Shown in pieces: positions 4,041 to 21,818 of a stretch of 21,884 nt of DNA (within the stretch, counting starts at the first letter, position 1; each line of letters starts with the position of its first letter). The notes under the pieces were generated by a model. That model ran no database searches, had not been told where the DNA came from, and saw nothing but the letters and a program-made list of their open reading frames with translations. The stretch is from a virus: positions 1 through 21,884 of IMG/VR virus record IMGVR_UViG_3300042934_000207. One strand, 5' to 3'. The position numbers and the translations under genes were made by a program.

Positions 4041-5783
4041 TTACAATTTAAATTTAACCATGTTATCCGTTTCTTTTAGCCCAGCGATATACAAGTAATC
4101 GTCAAGGATGAAGGTGGCTTCCGGTTCAACGGTGTACTTATTGTTCGCGTACCCAGTGTACGGATAACTGTAATCATCCACCACTTCAAATGTGCCATCA
4201 CTCAACAGTTTAATTTTAAGTGCATGAAGTGTTGCGAATCCTGTACTCAAATAAATATAACCGTCAAAACACATGCCTTGAGGTTGCGCTTCCGATCCAA
4301 CATATCCGAAATAACTGCCCAATATCTGTGCTGTCCCGTTGTAATCGGCGGTTGATTTCCCACTGACATATGTGCCCCATTTAAGTGGATTAGACTTATC
4401 GGCTGTGTTGTCTGCCAAATTGTTGTCGCCCATGCCAAGCAGAATTTTATAAATCCGCAAATAGACACTATCAACGATACACGCATAATAAACGATGTGG
4501 TTATTTTCTCCGAAACATGCAGCGCCATCGCCTTCTAGTTGAGGCTTCACTGCGCCCTCTTTAAAAATAATTTTCGTATTTGCGCTATCCGTTACATTTA
4601 AAGCCGACTTACCTATAGGATTGCTGTATAAATTTATTTCAGGCGGATACCCACCGCCGTTATATACAAGCAGTTTTCCGTTCTTGTAATCAACGCCATT
4701 TGAATGGCCTAAATTGTGGTCAATCCCACCTAAAGCATTCCAATTGCTATCAAAACGGTTTATTCTACTCCAAACAGTATGGTCGGAGGAACCCCCGCCT
4801 ACCATCCATATTTCATCATCAACAACCGTTCCATCTTGACCACACCATACAGTTCTTATTTCTCTAGGAGACCTAGACGTTAAAGGTAGCTTGTCTTTTG
4901 TATTTGGGTCCTTGCCTTTAATTGAGTATTTACTAGCGCACTGTACTGTTTTAGTTAAAGTATTTAGCACAGCAATTAAAATGTTATCTTCTGATAATCC
5001 TGCTAACGTGCCTGATGTTTGAATCGAGAAGGCATTCGTAACAGTGTCGAAATAGAGCAAATTCAACCCAAAAGACTTATTCATGCTAACTGTTAAATCA
5101 GCAGTTGTATTTGTACCAAACTTTGATTTTCCATAAACGAGATTAGTATCTCTAGGAATAACGATAGTTCCTGTGTCAAAATTGAAATCTAAGACCAATC
5201 CAAGTGTATTAAAATACGCCAATAAAACTGCTTCTCCTACTCTCGTTCTTTTAGAAGAAGTGACACTTTTATCTGCGAGTACTGTGCTTTGATAAACCCC
5301 ACCCGCTGTCCATGCCGTTCCGTTCCAATAGTACCATTTGCCATCTGCTGTAACTATGTAGACGCCTGTTGCTCCAGTCGGCAAGGACGTCTGTAATGCT
5401 GTGAGTGTGGCGTATGCCCCTTTTGGAGAGGAATTTCCGATGTTGGATATTGCCGTAGTGTTGGCTGATACATTGGCATTTGTAGTGTTTAAATCCACTT
5501 GATTAGCTTTAAGCACGACCTGGCCATCGATTCGATTAATTTCCGCTTGGACCACTGGGTTGTTTACCTCAGTCATTAAAGCAGGGTCAAGTTGGTCGAC
5601 ACCTACCGCACCTACCGCAATCATATCGCTGGTGACAGGATCGCTGATTGTCTTCGCCGTGATACTACCAATATTCTTCAACTTCAACGCATCTATCTCA
5701 TCGCCGCCGCCGATCTCATGCGTCTCTGCGTGGGTTTTTTTTTGGTTCAGCTGCCTCATGATCAACTCTGTTGTTTCGTTCAT
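4041..5783 (-). CDS. Beta-propeller receptor-binding / fibre-like protein
   Basis: This is a 580-aa protein starting at ATG 5783 with AAGGAGG 8 bases upstream. Residues 1-12 (MNETTELIMRQL) mirror the N-terminus of the spike at 1868-3403. Residues 17-31 hold a HAETHEIGGGDEID motif; H-x-x-x-H-x-x-GG-x-D-x-I is common near the N-terminus of phage fibres and appendages. Residues 80-115 look like a trimeric coiled stretch (repeated N-x-x-x-I/V). Residues 128-162 carry the TALQTSLPTG...WYYWNGTAW unit shared with the FN3/LamG protein. From about 305 onward, repeats such as EIWMVGGGS, GHSNGVDYKNGKLLVYNGGG and GMCFDGYIYLST suggest a beta-propeller, probably the host-binding head. No catalytic residues can be assigned. 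It lies just after a strong terminator. Confidence 0.75.
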   Translation of the reverse strand: MNETTELIMRQLNQKKTHAETHEIGGGDEIDALKLKNIGSITAKTISDPVTSDMIAVGAVGVDQLDPALMTEVNNPVVQAEINRIDGQVVLKANQVDLNTTNANVSANTTAISNIGNSSPKGAYATLTALQTSLPTGATGVYIVTADGKWYYWNGTAWTAGGVYQSTVLADKSVTSSKRTRVGEAVLLAYFNTLGLVLDFNFDTGTIVIPRDTNLVYGKSKFGTNTTADLTVSMNKSFGLNLLYFDTVTNAFSIQTSGTLAGLSEDNILIAVLNTLTKTVQCASKYSIKGKDPNTKDKLPLTSRSPREIRTVWCGQDGTVVDDEIWMVGGGSSDHTVWSRINRFDSNWNALGGIDHNLGHSNGVDYKNGKLLVYNGGGYPPEINLYSNPIGKSALNVTDSANTKIIFKEGAVKPQLEGDGAACFGENNHIVYYACIVDSVYLRIYKILLGMGDNNLADNTADKSNPLKWGTYVSGKSTADYNGTAQILGSYFGYVGSEAQPQGMCFDGYIYLSTGFATLHALKIKLLSDGTFEVVDDYSYPYTGYANNKYTVEPEATFILDDYLYIAGLKETDNMVKFKL

Positions 5784-12254: not shown

Positions 12255-12491
12255 TCACCTACTTTCAGGTTTGGGCCCGTTCAGCCACTCGTGTAGTATG
12301 TTGTCATCCATGACGACCGGCTTCTTCGGCTCACTCGGCTCAAATGGATTCATTACCGGCTGATCCATCGTAGGCAGCTGTTCTTGCTTCGTTTCAATCT
12401 GCCACCTTAGCCCGAGTTGCACAGCCTTTAACGTGAAATAACCCACTACAATGGCTGTAATGGGAATGCATAAGGCTAATATGATTACCAA
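12255..12491 (-). CDS. Small one-helix membrane protein between terminase and portal
   Basis: This is a 78-aa protein. The best start is TTG at 12491, because a GGAGG site inside the last codons of terL lies 10 bases upstream and no ATG fits the frame. Residues 1-22 form one hydrophobic helix (ILALCIPITAIVVGYFTL). A polar, Pro-rich tail follows, ending in HEWLNGPKPESR. The topology is N-terminal anchor with a soluble tail. The stop TGA lies inside the portal ribosome site. A pinholin-like, head-assembly or superinfection role is conceivable, but nothing in the sequence decides this. I do not recognise the family. Confidence 0.7.
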   Translation of the reverse strand: MVIILALCIPITAIVVGYFTLKAVQLGLRWQIETKQEQLPTMDQPVMNPFEPSEPKKPVVMDDNILHEWLNGPKPESR

Positions 12492-14002
12492 TTCATGAAA
12501 CCTCCTTGGCTTGGTTCCTCTGTCCTGAATGCGAACGGCAACGGCGCCGCCTCTTTATCAGGGAAATCACCACTAAAATAAATAAAACGATGCAACGCTT
12601 GGCTCATCGCATCGACCTGATCGTCATTCTTGCCATTCGGGAAGCTCGCTGCCTCTTCTACAAAGTCATGAACCCACTCAGTATTACGTGGTAGGAATGT
12701 GTTACCTGACTCAATATAAGCGGATACAGCGTTCACTCGCGACACCTTACCACCTTCGGGGTTTATGCCGATGATCCCAGGTATCTCACGTTGTAGTGTG
12801 GCGATGATCGCCGAACCATTAGCCTTGTCCTCAACCAGCTTCCATGATGCATCCGGATGCTTCCTCACCATATTGCGGATCGTCTGGACCGTAGCCGGGA
12901 AGTTCATCTTTGCTCGCACCTGGTCAATCAAATACATATCAGCGCGATTCTTGCCCCACACTTGAATGACAACGTAGTCGCTTTCCTTCTCGTCTTTGAA
13001 CGTGGCGTCAATACTGATGAGCTTAGAAGCAACCGGTGGCAGAGTATCATAGTACTTCCACCAATCACGCTTGAGCATGTTACCCTCTTGGCTCGTCGGT
13101 CTACCCTGGAACAGCGCGTTAAACGAAGTAGGGTAAGCTTTACGCTCCTCGACGAAGTCTTTCCCGTATCGCTCAGGCCATAGCGGTTCTCCTAGCTCGC
13201 GGGCCAGTGGATTACCTTCCTTCTCGATGTGCGTCTCATCACACTCAAGCGGCAAGTTAGTCACTACCCATGGAAGTGGCTTACCGTGCATCGGATCTAA
13301 CAACCTGCCCCATAAGTCATCCTCATGCCAGCGCGTGTTGATCAATATCACAATTGCGCCAGGATGGATACGAGTCGATATGGAGTCTTTCCACTCCTCA
13401 AACATCTTATTGCGGTACGTCTCGCTATTGGCTTCCTCGCGGTTCTTGATAGGGTCATCGATGATAACGCAATCGCCCCATGATGAGCCGGTGATACCCG
13501 ACATAATACCTCTGGAGATCATCCCGCCTCGCGTTTTCTTGCCATCTACCGATACAGACCATTCATCCTTCGCTCTCGTATCAGCAGCTACATCAATGCC
13601 GAAGAGGTCTTTGCCGAACTCTTCAACCTTGTCCTTGTTCTTGCTACCAAACTTCTCAGCGAAGCCGCTGTTATAGCTGACCTCAATCACACCCTCATTG
13701 GGGAAGTGTCCGAGGAAGTAGCTGGGGAATGTCTCTGTTATATGCATTGACTTACCATGCTGCGGTGGAACCGAGAACATGAAGTATTGCGTCCTCACTG
13801 GTATCTGACCGGCTAACATGCGCTTGCGCTTCTTCACAGCATCGTCTAACAGCCGGCAAATGTACTCACCGTGCCTCGTATAGCCGTACATGGCACCGTG
13901 TGCGTACTTCACATACTCGTAATAGTCATTTGCAGCGTTATGCTTCTCCTCTAGCTCAAGAAGCGCTATTAGCTCCATTTCCTCGGCGGCGGTTAAGCTC
14001 AT
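12485..14002 (-). CDS. terL: Terminase large subunit (packaging ATPase/nuclease)
   Basis: This is a 505-aa protein starting at ATG 14002 with GGAGGG 10 bases upstream. The start overlaps the end of terS by 47 bases in another frame. The ATPase half has Walker A SVPPQHGKS (77-85), Walker B CVIIDDP (178-184) and the coupling motif INTRWH (221-226). The RNase-H-like nuclease half has D332 in SIDATFKD, E391/D392 in VEDKANG and NDDQVDAM with D460, D461 and D464. All expected acidic residues are present, so the enzyme looks active. It cuts and pumps DNA into the procapsid through the portal encoded next to it. The C-terminal 30 residues are Pro-rich and variable. Confidence 0.95.
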   Translation of the reverse strand: MSLTAAEEMELIALLELEEKHNAANDYYEYVKYAHGAMYGYTRHGEYICRLLDDAVKKRKRMLAGQIPVRTQYFMFSVPPQHGKSMHITETFPSYFLGHFPNEGVIEVSYNSGFAEKFGSKNKDKVEEFGKDLFGIDVAADTRAKDEWSVSVDGKKTRGGMISRGIMSGITGSSWGDCVIIDDPIKNREEANSETYRNKMFEEWKDSISTRIHPGAIVILINTRWHEDDLWGRLLDPMHGKPLPWVVTNLPLECDETHIEKEGNPLARELGEPLWPERYGKDFVEERKAYPTSFNALFQGRPTSQEGNMLKRDWWKYYDTLPPVASKLISIDATFKDEKESDYVVIQVWGKNRADMYLIDQVRAKMNFPATVQTIRNMVRKHPDASWKLVEDKANGSAIIATLQREIPGIIGINPEGGKVSRVNAVSAYIESGNTFLPRNTEWVHDFVEEAASFPNGKNDDQVDAMSQALHRFIYFSGDFPDKEAAPLPFAFRTEEPSQGGFMNW

Positions 14003-14411
14003 CTATTCTCGCCCTCCGTTCGTCTGGAGTTAGACCGGTTATGTCCTGCACCGTATTGTTCATTCCACCAGTGACATCCATCTTCACCTTATCAGTGAAC
14101 ATGCCGATATGCTTACCGATCAACTCAAGTGCTTTGTTTGATGGAGCCATATCGCCCATCTGCTTTGCTAATCTATGATTATCTGCCAGCTCGTTAAGTA
14201 CCCACTCAGCAGTTAATTCCGTCTTTTCCTGCAGTTTTTCCTGCCTTGTAGTAATTTCTGCTACAATGTTAGGATTTGTTAGCAATTTTGATGCGCTAAC
14301 CCTCGCAGCTTCCTCTGTGCACTTGTACCCAGCACGCAGATAAGCTTGCGTTGCGTTCATGTCCACCATGTACTCGTCAACGAACTTCATCTGCTTATCC
14401 GTCAATGCCAT
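13956..14411 (-). CDS. terS: Terminase small subunit
   Basis: This is a 151-aa protein. I place the start at ATG 14411 (MALTDKQMKFVDEYMVDMNA), because the family begins this way and an AAGGTG site lies about 7 bases upstream. An upstream GTG in the same frame (14522) would add 37 hydrophobic residues that do not fit. The sequence LTDKQMKFVDEYMVD...NATQAYLRAGYK then S-x-x-A-S-K-L-L-x-N-P-N-I is the classic TerS N-terminal helix-turn-helix and helical hairpin. The rest is a helical oligomerisation region and a basic tail (RRARIDELNRRRG). It selects packaging sites and stimulates TerL. Confidence 0.92.
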   Translation of the reverse strand: MALTDKQMKFVDEYMVDMNATQAYLRAGYKCTEEAARVSASKLLTNPNIVAEITTRQEKLQEKTELTAEWVLNELADNHRLAKQMGDMAPSNKALELIGKHIGMFTDKVKMDVTGGMNNTVQDITGLTPDERRARIDELNRRRGNGANSAS

Positions 14412-14514
14412 CGTCTTCACCTTCTTCTTCCCTGTAGTAACAAAACCAGAACCAGTGCCACCAAATAAAAAATACAGGAGCAGACCAACATAATAGGTCC
14501 AATTCCTCCTGCAT
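14395..14514 (-). CDS. Possible 39-aa aromatic-rich membrane peptide before terS
   Basis: ATG 14514 opens a 39-codon frame with GAGG about 10 bases upstream. It has an acidic start (MQEELDLLC), a very Trp/Phe-rich hydrophobic core (FFIWWHWFWFCYY) and an acidic tail (REEEGEDDGIDG). It overlaps the first bases of terS. All three frames here look hydrophobic because the strand is T-rich, and it competes with the 24-aa frame at 14417-14491, so at most one of them is likely real. Confidence 0.25.
   Translation of the reverse strand: MQEELDLLCWSAPVFFIWWHWFWFCYYREEEGEDDGIDG
14417..14491 (-). CDS. Possible 24-aa single-helix membrane peptide before terS
   Basis: ATG 14491 opens a 24-codon frame with a hydrophobic helix (CSCIFYLVALVLVLLLQ) and a positive end (GRRR). 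Its TGA lies inside the ribosome site of terS. A GGAGG lies about 13 bases upstream, which is long. The topology is that of tiny phage membrane peptides, but the frame competes with the 39-aa frame over the same bases. Low certainty. Confidence 0.25.
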   Translation of the reverse strand: MLVCSCIFYLVALVLVLLLQGRRR

Positions 14515-14528
14515 AAGCTCACTTCCTC

Positions 14529-14580
14529 AAAATAAAAAGAGAAGTACAGATTGCGTGTCGTAGCGCTCTGTTACTTCTCT
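14529..14580 (-). terminator. Strong terminator/attenuator upstream of terS
   Basis: On the minus strand AGAGAAGT-A-ACAGA pairs with TCTGT-ACTTCTCT: 13 base pairs with one bulged A, plus an inner GCG/CGC. TTTTTATTTT follows. It lies after the promoter at 14648-14677 and before terS. The stop codon of the small leader frame (14571-14573) is inside the 5' arm, so a ribosome reaching it would disturb the hairpin. Confidence 0.85.
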
Positions 14581-14633
14581 CTATGTGCAAGGAGTTGTAA
14601 CACAAGACTGATCATCTGGCCGCCTTGTATCAT
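14571..14633 (-). CDS. Possible 20-aa leader peptide before the terS attenuator
   Basis: ATG 14633 opens a 20-codon frame reading MIQGGQMISLVLQLLAHREK, a short hydrophobic stretch with a charged end. Only a weak purine-rich GAGAGAG precedes it. It begins about 10 bases after the predicted transcription start, and its TAA falls in the 5' arm of the terminator. This arrangement matches translational control of attenuation. A faint likeness to tiny holin-like peptides is noted but unproven. Confidence 0.3.
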   Translation of the reverse strand: MIQGGQMISLVLQLLAHREK

Positions 14634-14647
14634 CACACTCTCTCGAT

Positions 14648-14677
14648 AATATAATTTTATCACCCAGTTCATGACAA
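14648..14677 (-). promoter_or_regulatory. Promoter of the packaging/head operon
   Basis: On the minus strand TTGTCA (14677-14672) and TATATT (14653-14648) are separated by 18 bases. Each is one mismatch from the sigma-A consensus. Transcription would start near 14641 and enter the leader and terminator before terS. This is the likely late promoter. The ArpU/sigma-like regulator encoded just upstream may act here. Confidence 0.6.
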
Positions 14678-14701
14678 ATGCATGCATAAAAAATGATAAA
14701 A
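14655..14701. promoter_or_regulatory. Nested inverted repeats around the late promoter (operator candidate)
   Basis: TTTTATCA (14655-14662) and TGATAAAA (14694-14701) are perfect 8-bp inverted repeats centred near 14678. Inside them, touching the -35 box, is the perfect 10-bp palindrome ATGCATGCAT (14678-14687). Such symmetry next to -35 fits a site for a dimeric activator or repressor. The binding protein is not known. The remainder of 14523-14711 contains only the leader and terminator listed separately. Confidence 0.5.
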
Positions 14702-14711
14702 ACCTGCGCTG

Positions 14712-14888
14712 TCAGTCAGTTTTCTTAAATGCCGGCGGGAACATCATATCAATAGCGCTCGTCATCCCAAGTGGGAAAATTGTGGCATCATTGATCTTCT
14801 TCTTCGCTTCTTCTTCAGTCAGATTGTACCGTTCCATAAACATTTGAAGGATTATTTGCGCTTTCTCTAGATCATTCATTTCTTCCAT
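14712..14888 (-). CDS. Small unknown protein upstream of the late promoter
   Basis: This is a 58-aa protein. I choose ATG 14888 (MEEMNDLEKAQ) because GAGGTG lies 6 bases upstream. A GTG at 14906 would add six residues but has no ribosome site. The N-terminal half is helical and acidic (NLTEEEAKKKIND). The second half is hydrophobic and Met/Pro-rich (FPLGMTSAIDMMFPPAF). No helix-turn-helix or membrane segment is clear. It follows the ArpU-like gene by about 30 bases and precedes the late promoter, so a regulatory role is possible. I do not recognise the family. Confidence 0.7.
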   Translation of the reverse strand: MEEMNDLEKAQIILQMFMERYNLTEEEAKKKINDATIFPLGMTSAIDMMFPPAFKKTD

Positions 14889-14921
14889 CGTCATCACCTC
14901 AACCACATCATATCACACATC

Positions 14922-15368
14922 TTATGACGCTGGTTGTTCTTGGAATCTCCAATTCTTATCAAACATGTGATCAAGATTTTCTATTTCGCGCTCATCGGCG
15001 GTAAGTGGTAGAAGTGCTATTGCCAATCTTCGAATGGCTGCCGTGTGTAGCCTGGAGATAACACTAGGGTCCTTATGAGCAGAGTCAGCAATCTCATTCA
15101 GGTTAACCGGATTGCGATCAATATACTTCCGCATAATCACCATTCGCTCGTCATCGCTCAGCACTTCGTTAATCGCTCCGTCAATCATGCTCACAATGCG
15201 ATTGTACCGGCTTGCATCCCACGCGTTCATGAGACCAATGTTGAAGCGCTCTGACATTATTGGCGCCGATCTGAATCGCACGATGTCGTCCCCGCAATTC
15301 ATTGCGGCGTATCTGTAGCTTCGGTAATCTCGAAGCAGCTCGGTAACTTTATTCTTGTCCATGCTCAT
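14922..15368 (-). CDS. ArpU/sigma-70 region-4-like transcriptional regulator
   Basis: This is a 148-aa protein whose ATG (15368) overlaps the stop of the preceding gene, with GAGGTG 7 bases upstream. Residues 68-120 (LSDDERMVIMRKYIDR, NLNEIADSAHKDPSVISRLH, IRRLAIAL) form a sigma-70 region-4-like helix-turn-helix of the kind found in ArpU and RinA-type late regulators. The N-terminal half is helical with no clear enzyme motif. Such proteins commonly sit just before terS and switch on the packaging and structural genes. The promoter with nested repeats and the attenuator 300 bases downstream are plausible targets. The family is read from pattern, the target is inferred. Confidence 0.7.
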   Translation of the reverse strand: MSMDKNKVTELLRDYRSYRYAAMNCGDDIVRFRSAPIMSERFNIGLMNAWDASRYNRIVSMIDGAINEVLSDDERMVIMRKYIDRNPVNLNEIADSAHKDPSVISRLHTAAIRRLAIALLPLTADEREIENLDHMFDKNWRFQEQPAS

Positions 15369-21320: not shown

Positions 21321-21797
21321 TCAAGATATTTCGTTTAGCCTAGCGAATTCTCCATGAAACCTGATTGCTGCATCGTTGTATGCTCTTGCCGCTATTTCTG
21401 GAGTTTCGTAGCAACCTATGTAGGTCATTTTGCGATTGATTTTAATTCGCGCGATCCACGATTCGCGTTTACTCGTTTTATTCCGGATCACACCTTTGTA
21501 TCCGGACTTAGCGGTATTGCCGATACGGTTGCATGAATTTTGATGTGGTGTAGCAAAACGCAGATTTTCTTTACGGTTGTCGATCCTGTTGCCATTTTTA
21601 TGATCAACTATCCGGCTTTTTTGAGCTTTCATAATTTCACGGTGCATAAGAATTTTCCATTGCTCACCTTTTTGTCTGTCACCGATCCGGTAGGCGTATC
21701 CATACTGCGATTTATTCCAACGATATTGTGATAAATACTCGTAATCTTCATCGTCGACTAAGCAAATTTCACCTTTACCTAGGATCAATTCTTTCAT
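21321..21797 (-). CDS. HNH homing endonuclease with AP2 DNA-binding domain
   Basis: This is a 158-aa protein. ATG 21797 is preferred because AGGGGTG lies 5-6 bases upstream; a start at 21815 has no such site. An N-terminal beta region (ICLVDDEDYEYLSQYRW) precedes the HNH nuclease: MHREIM (H52), DHKNGNRIDNRKENLRFAT (D65, H66, N68, N74, N78). An AP2-like domain follows (residues 100-155: GYKGV, W-x-ARI, IGCYETPEIAARAYNDAA). Such free-standing enzymes cut DNA and spread into phage genomes. It stands between a hairpin with flanking repeats and the small early genes, so it may be a late insertion. Confidence 0.9.
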   Translation of the reverse strand: MKELILGKGEICLVDDEDYEYLSQYRWNKSQYGYAYRIGDRQKGEQWKILMHREIMKAQKSRIVDHKNGNRIDNRKENLRFATPHQNSCNRIGNTAKSGYKGVIRNKTSKRESWIARIKINRKMTYIGCYETPEIAARAYNDAAIRFHGEFARLNEIS

Positions 21798-21818
21798 GGA
21801 TACACCCCTATTCATTTT

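Follow-up and report, generated by a model that had tools for sequence, protein, structure and literature searches.

The late region of the window

The window analysed here is a virus record of 21,884 bp. The recognisable genes of the region studied all lie on the minus strand. Read 5' to 3' on that strand, the order is a RinA/ArpU-like regulator (Ltr), an ORF of 64 amino acids, a leader, terS, terL, and the portal gene. The promoter, hairpin, and terminator of the leader form a compact unit of about 110 nt. Relatives recognised by terL, terS, and the regulator include Paenibacillus prophages. The features of the region, with the evidence for each, are as follows.

14925-15368, minus strand: ltr, RinA/ArpU-like late activator of the sigma-region-4 type, 148 aa (PHROG 248, PHROG 36)
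14712-14906, minus strand: 64-aa ORF without a family match, between ltr and the promoter; missing here in most relatives
14671-14699, minus strand: three direct repeats spaced by 11 bp, presumed Ltr sites (sequence, and 11-bp periodicity in relatives)
14654-14662, minus strand: extended -10 box TGATAAAAT (distance to the hairpin constant in 42/42 distinct relatives)
14646-14651, minus strand: second -10-like hexamer TATTAT, spanning the expected start (conservation in relatives)
14586-14648, minus strand: diverged copy of the late-leader RNA hairpin (covariance-model matches, fold, family covariation)
14571-14633, minus strand: 20-codon leader frame, judged fortuitous (translation; frame not conserved)
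14537-14581, minus strand: intrinsic terminator stem-loop, with a T tract at 14536-14529 (fold energy, shuffles)
14473-14515, minus strand: second hairpin, with TTTTTTATTT after it, that overlaps the 39-aa ORF at its start (-17.4 kcal/mol; z = -2.8 for 14530-14460)
14395-14514, minus strand: 39-aa ORF MQEELDLLCWSAPVFFIWWHWFWFCYYREEEGEDDGIDG, first gene past the terminator, overlapping the terS start (homologues in relatives L022 and L217)
13956-14411, minus strand: terS, terminase small subunit, 151 aa, likely start ATG at 14411 (PF03592, E = 3.6e-26; PHROG 51, E = 2.5e-36)
12485-14002, minus strand: terL, terminase large subunit (PHROG 38, E = 4.9e-102)

As in phages of the Ltr/RinA/ArpU type, the gene of a small sigma-region-4-like regulator lies just upstream of the late promoter. 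In profile searches the product matches PHROG 248 ("transcriptional activator", E = 1.2e-6), PHROG 36 (E = 3.4e-6), and the RinA family TIGR01636 at E = 1.1e-4, which is under that family's curated cut-off. A tblastn search with the protein against phage records gave no match at E = 1e-4. The closest homologue, from relative L024, is 67% identical and adjoins the same leader. All 28 neighbouring Ltr-like proteins chosen for alignment from the relatives match PHROG 36.

The 39-aa ORF is absent from the program-made ORF list. Its product is aromatic, carries the motif LCWxxxxFxxWWHWFWxxYY, and is probably membrane-associated; the homologues in L022 and L217 are found at the same place. A terminator-like hairpin with a U tract overlaps the start of the small ORF both in the window and in L022 (about 2232-2286), and L128 and L217 are similar. 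Because of this overlap, translation of the small gene could influence termination. Elsewhere in the window, a 164-aa ORF (21321-21815, minus strand) resembles by eye an HNH homing endonuclease with an AP2-type domain.

The late promoter

A promoter had been predicted near terS as the pair TTGTCA-18-TATATT (14677-14648). There is a promoter at this place, and the named pair is a chance-level match, with 17 such sites in the window against 20.7 expected. The proposed -35 element, TTGTCA, is part of the last of three 11-bp direct repeats, TTATCAT at 14699, TATGCAT at 14688, and TTGTCAT at 14677. Comparison with 42 distinct relatives places the actual -10 element at TG-A-TAAAAT (14662-14654, minus strand). 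The extended -10 motif TGnTAnnnT stands at a single fixed distance from the hairpin in the 42 distinct upstream regions, and T-11, A-10, and T-6 of the hexamer are invariant in 42/42. A -35 box is not a feature of the relatives and is present in just 3 of 46, which is consistent with a regulator-dependent promoter.

Direct repeats upstream of the late promoter are a second trait shared with the Ltr/RinA/ArpU group. Across the 42 upstream regions, identity at the 11-bp period is 0.449, compared with 0.271 in shuffled sequences, where the highest of 300 shuffles reached 0.300. In phages phi13 and TP901-1, repeats upstream of the late promoter are mapped or presumed Ltr binding sites (PMC13123087). 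Ltr probably binds the 11-bp repeats of the window as well.

The spacing from the -10 box suggests that transcription starts no more than about 3 nt from the first hairpin column, and the start is expected at about 14648-14646. Taken together, the fixed extended -10 box and the 11-bp repeats indicate that the hairpin lies at the 5' end of a transcript under activator control. A second -10-like hexamer, TAnnAT, lies 8 bp past the promoter -10, across the expected start, and is near-invariant in the 42 distinct relatives. Its T-3 is kept in 38/42 and its A-2 in 42/42, and columns 2-3 of the hairpin alignment are invariant. A sigma-dependent pause has been proposed for putL of phage HK022 (PMC9378689), and the second hexamer may, by analogy, be a pause site of this kind.

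A conserved hairpin at the 5' end of the late transcript

An RNA hairpin of about 63 nt recurs in phages and prophages of the Paenibacillus type, at 46 or more non-identical loci, where it sits between promoter and terminator at the 5' end of the transcript. In L024 the regulator gene is followed by a hairpin like that of the window. A pattern scan with the conserved loop recovered the same hairpin in tens of viral contigs. In phage records with a match, the hairpin is present in one copy each (15/15).

The 24 aligned sequences fold into one bulged hairpin. The lower stem has 7 pairs and is followed by a 5' bulge with a conserved A. Above the bulge, 6-7 pairs of inner stem lead to a G-R-U/G-U-C helix of three pairs, then to a purine-purine mismatch, a G-C/C-G pair, and the loop; the apical consensus is GRUAGCUNNNUGCGCAGUC. 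In this alignment 95.4% of cells are paired and 13 pairs have changed on both sides, a result reached by 0 of 500 shuffles. With 31 distinct rows, 96.3% are paired, and double-change cells number 100 against 26 expected. Compensatory change in the hairpin thus far exceeds both shuffled and slid controls, which indicates that selection acts on the RNA structure and not on a coding frame.

The copy in the window is diverged in the loop and retains just one of the two pairs in the apical G-C/C-G helix. It scored 48.3 bits in the first covariance model, which included the window sequence. In a second model, built without the window copy and without L018, the best match in the window was exactly 14648-14586 on the right strand, directly 3' of the -10 box (18.5 bits, E = 0.017); the held-out L018 was found at E = 5e-6. 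A chance match is unlikely given this position directly past the -10 box. The window copy folds at z = -2.7. A pattern closest to its loop had 27 matches in viral contigs, 0 of which were in the family by the model.

No match was found in the whole of Rfam 15, either for the window at the gathering threshold or for six relatives at E up to 5. BLASTN searches of phage records with the leader and two hairpin variants also gave no match. By the Rfam search, the family appears to be undescribed.

Distribution of the hairpin

Records of Paenibacillus dakarensis, P. sp. DMB20, P. oryzisoli, P. ottowii, P. taiwanensis, P. maysiensis, P. xylanexedens, P. rhizophilus, and P. sinensis all contain the hairpin. 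Among genomes of the genus of G001 it was found in 8 of 100, and among those of the order in 16 of 395. In a sample of the class Bacilli it occurred in 4 of 300 genomes, all 4 of which recurred in the Paenibacillales sample. In the phylum sample of 398 genomes, the sole match was the centre genome itself, although the strict filters of these scans may have missed weak copies.

Relatives L010, L014, L015, L016, and L023 have no recognisable hairpin and yet have leader or internal terminators. The hairpin would thus be dispensable in some such arrangements, or be replaced by other elements. A different stable 5' hairpin at the same place is unsupported in the hairpin-less phages L004, L023, and L010 (z = -0.4 to -0.8). 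Weak model matches of 15-16 bits are seen at the usual place in L010 (2308-2366) and L014 (1155-1213), with similar flanks and arms and a different apical loop. These are possibly a second hairpin subtype.

Terminators before and within the late genes

The original prediction of a 13-bp stem terminator with a T run directly before terS holds, and the terminator is a strong one. It lies at 14581-14537 on the minus strand and consists of 13 bp with one bulged A and a 16-nt loop, followed by TTTATTTT. Its stem contains GC pairs and leads into the T tract, as predicted for an intrinsic terminator. The free energy is -19.5 kcal/mol; folded alone, the stem-loop has z = -4.8, and 0 of 200 shuffles were as stable.

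The terminator is kept across related phages. Of the leaders covered by enough sequence, 46 of 46 show a terminator-like hairpin no more than 700 nt from the element. The distances are 3-401 nt (median 139), and the count includes the hairpins of L022, L128, and L217, which sit at or close to a short coding frame and perhaps do not terminate. In these three loci no other leader terminator was found, and the one present overlaps the start of the short frame or lies at it. Two or more leader terminators are present in 17 of 46 loci. By a strict count (-12 kcal/mol or better, within 430 nt), 39/45 leaders have a terminator on the forward strand; the reverse strand gives 5, and shuffles predict 2.1. 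The order is nearly always the Ltr gene, 11-bp repeats, extended -10, hairpin, terminator(s), and packaging genes.

Hairpin and terminator show no excess complementarity (4/46 at the 5% level), and riboswitch-like pairing between the two was rejected on this count. The variable distance and the lack of mutual pairing argue against a local switch and fit action at a distance.

In several phages, the stretch from the late promoter and its hairpin to the leader terminator contains tRNA genes or tRNA-like sequences. Such stretches are seen in L061 (4213-4285), L069 (3717-3791), L078 (5601-5676), L107 (5814-5889), and the TP901-1 leader (L222). The tRNA-Leu-like stretches of L045, L066, L103, and L105 received no ARAGORN call.

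Conserved intergenic intrinsic terminators also occur within the head cluster of L168-L184, about 5-6.6 kb and 7.2-9.6 kb past the leader, where they follow the portal region and the capsid region. In the window, none of these intergenic terminators was found. These terminators are present in phages with and without the hairpin. The idea that they are exclusive to hairpin-bearing phages was rejected, as L181-L184 have them too.

A proposed control point for the late operon

The arrangement of an Ltr-driven promoter, a 5' hairpin, a terminator, and packaging genes is read from sequence with high confidence. Since one or more terminators stand between promoter and terS, the late genes would need read-through. 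The order is kept in nearly all related phages examined, which makes a read-through decision before terS likely. In this respect the original proposal of a built-in switch for the late genes is supported; the control by a leader peptide that it invoked is unsupported.

The favoured explanation, to which we give about even odds, is a control point at which the terminator would be passed by processive antitermination. Ltr, made from the gene just upstream, would bind the 11-bp repeats and activate the extended -10 promoter, which lacks a -35 box. The transcript would begin, within a few nucleotides of its 5' end, with the conserved bulged hairpin, which would fold on leaving the polymerase, and would then meet one or more intrinsic terminators ahead of terS. 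RNA polymerase would be modified by this 5' hairpin as it emerges, acting by itself or together with a protein of phage or host. The modified polymerase would ignore the leader terminator and further terminators inside the head operon. Antitermination by RNA is known to act in this manner in HK022 put (PMC9378689), in the dfn hairpin with LoaP (PMC12691694), and in canT (PMC11658703). Comparison of the relatives shows the gene order, the fixed spacing of promoter and hairpin, the selection on the hairpin at the RNA level, and the recurrence of terminators. We infer that Ltr binds the repeats, and likewise the exact start of transcription, the efficiency of termination, and the antitermination activity. 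We regard it as an even question whether the hairpin is the antitermination signal; the relatives that have leader and head-operon terminators and lack a recognisable hairpin count against it.

A conserved structure at the 5' end would also be expected of an mRNA stabiliser or a protein-binding site. The hairpin may then act on the stability or translation of the late mRNA, as a 5'-end protector or protein-binding element, next to a leaky or partial terminator. Its extreme 5' position, stable stem, and invariant apical loop agree with such a role, partial terminators tuning late gene dosage are plausible, and the terminators past the portal and major-capsid regions also occur in hairpin-less phages. 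However, a strong terminator between promoter and packaging genes in nearly all relatives is left unexplained, as are the serial terminators, two or more, of 17 loci. This explanation is considered doubtful.

Promoter, hairpin, and terminator could instead be a separate small-RNA or tRNA gene, with the late genes read mostly from elsewhere. Lambda 6S RNA, which runs from pR' to tR', is an example of such a unit. The compactness of the unit in the window would suit a small-RNA gene, as would the tRNA or tRNA-like genes that several relatives carry between the hairpin and the terminator, and the good promoters past the terminator in L003, L066, and L121. Overall, however, promoter-like sites past the terminator occur in the relatives at chance level (16 seen against 14.0 expected). 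In addition, the repeats and -10 box are placed like those of the mapped Ltr-dependent late promoters of phi13 and TP901-1, which drive late genes (PMC13123087). A separate small-RNA gene is unlikely.

Insulation of late genes from early-operon read-through is common in prophages, and the terminator is located at the early-late junction. It could just end an early transcript, with the true late promoter downstream. Against this, the conserved activator-type promoter precedes the terminator in every relative examined, and the stretch past the terminator has no conserved promoter. The window likewise has no better candidate between terminator and terS, which bears out, for this interval, the original observation that no other promoter is visible. 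Simple insulation is thus quite improbable.

The 20-codon leader frame

The leader frame on which the proposed attenuator was built is present, from ATG at 14633 to TAA at 14571 (MIQGGQMISLVLQLLAHREK), and its stop codon lies in the 5' arm of the terminator. It is not conserved: in the comparison across related phages suggested with the proposal, terminator and conserved hairpin persist and the reading frame does not. The frame runs through the conserved hairpin, with its start codon in a paired arm. In phages of the L025 type, pair 20-54 has changed from G-C to A-U, so that the AUG is gone and the pairing is preserved. An AUG is found at that place in 23 of 31 distinct hairpins, many of them with AGGA-like letters a few bases 5' of it, and there is none in the other 8. 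Most frames with an AUG end after 3-5 codons in the loop; others continue for varying lengths, and stop codons lie anywhere between 37 nt ahead of the hairpin end and over 400 nt past it. The frame in the window is without a good ribosome site.

Neither a conserved frame with regulatory codons nor mutually exclusive pairing of leader and terminator, as in leader-peptide attenuators, was found. Given the loss of the AUG by a pair-preserving change, stop codons placed anywhere, frames of different length and end between groups, and a leader-terminator distance that is not constant, it is very improbable that translation of the frame blocks the terminator.

Comparison with known systems

Among the closest parallels is HK022 putL, an RNA of about 60-70 nt that acts in cis beside a promoter. 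It has bulged stems, carries polymerase past terminators in a phage operon, and has a promoter-proximal -10-like sequence (PMC9378689). The put RNAs differ in acting at early promoters, in having two stem-loops, and in binding the beta' zinc-binding domain. By that description the present element is set apart: the two stem-loops of put are not found in the structure supported by covariation, which is one bulged hairpin at a late promoter of Paenibacillus-type phages.

In the LoaP-dependent dfn operon of Bacillus velezensis, a small leader hairpin likewise precedes an intrinsic terminator in a long operon with multiple terminators and a Gram-positive host (PMC12691694). The dfn hairpin carries a UNCG tetraloop and depends on LoaP, a paralogue of NusG, whereas no UNCG-type tetraloop is seen in the conserved loop described here. 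RNA-based processive antitermination in Gram-positive hosts is also known from canT of Tn916, EAR of the eps operon, and conAn of pLS20 (PMC11658703). These belong to other kinds of operon, and canT is far larger.

The lambda Q system at pR' and tR' is similar in layout, with a late promoter, a short leader, and a terminator that has to be read through for the late genes. Q binds a DNA site in the promoter, whereas here a sigma-region-4-like activator is combined with a conserved RNA hairpin at the transcript start.

The Ltr (RinA/ArpU/Alt) phages of Firmicutes share the upstream regulator gene, the direct repeats, and a late operon that begins with packaging genes (PMC13123087). Late activation by Ltr is described there without a terminator or a leader RNA, and here both are conserved. 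To our knowledge, Ltr proteins are described as promoter activators and not as antiterminators.

Phages phi11, phi13, and TP901-1 have the same order of promoter, terminator, and late genes as the Paenibacillus phages. In phi11 (L220), rinA is followed by repeats, a -10 box, and a candidate intrinsic terminator at 1955-1978, 48 nt before terS. In phi13 (L221), a terminator-like hairpin at 2092-2116 lies about 25-50 nt past the start inferred from the -10 box. TP901-1 (L222) has tRNA-like sequences and a candidate terminator at 4519-4539 between alt and terS, 23 nt before terS. These candidates are weaker, at -11 to -13 kcal/mol. No paper discussing the leader terminators of the three phages was found in the openly licensed literature. 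In phi13, co-transcription of terL and mcp starts at the Ltr promoter P23 (PMC13123087) despite the terminator-like hairpin past the inferred start. An elongation-level switch would bear on reporter constructs that end near the terminator; the phi13 P23 fusion ends 50 bp past the start site.

Tentatively, Ltr/RinA/ArpU phages may in general gate their late genes with a post-promoter terminator that is antiterminated. The signal in Paenibacillus phages would be the 5' hairpin, perhaps loaded at a sigma-dependent pause near the promoter, for which the second -10-like hexamer is the candidate site.

Late control in temperate phages of Gram-positive bacteria has been described as promoter activation by RinA/ArpU/Ltr proteins. 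A structured RNA and a terminator before the packaging genes point to an added switch at the level of elongation, as in lambda. If this is true, the hairpin would represent a new family of antitermination RNAs.
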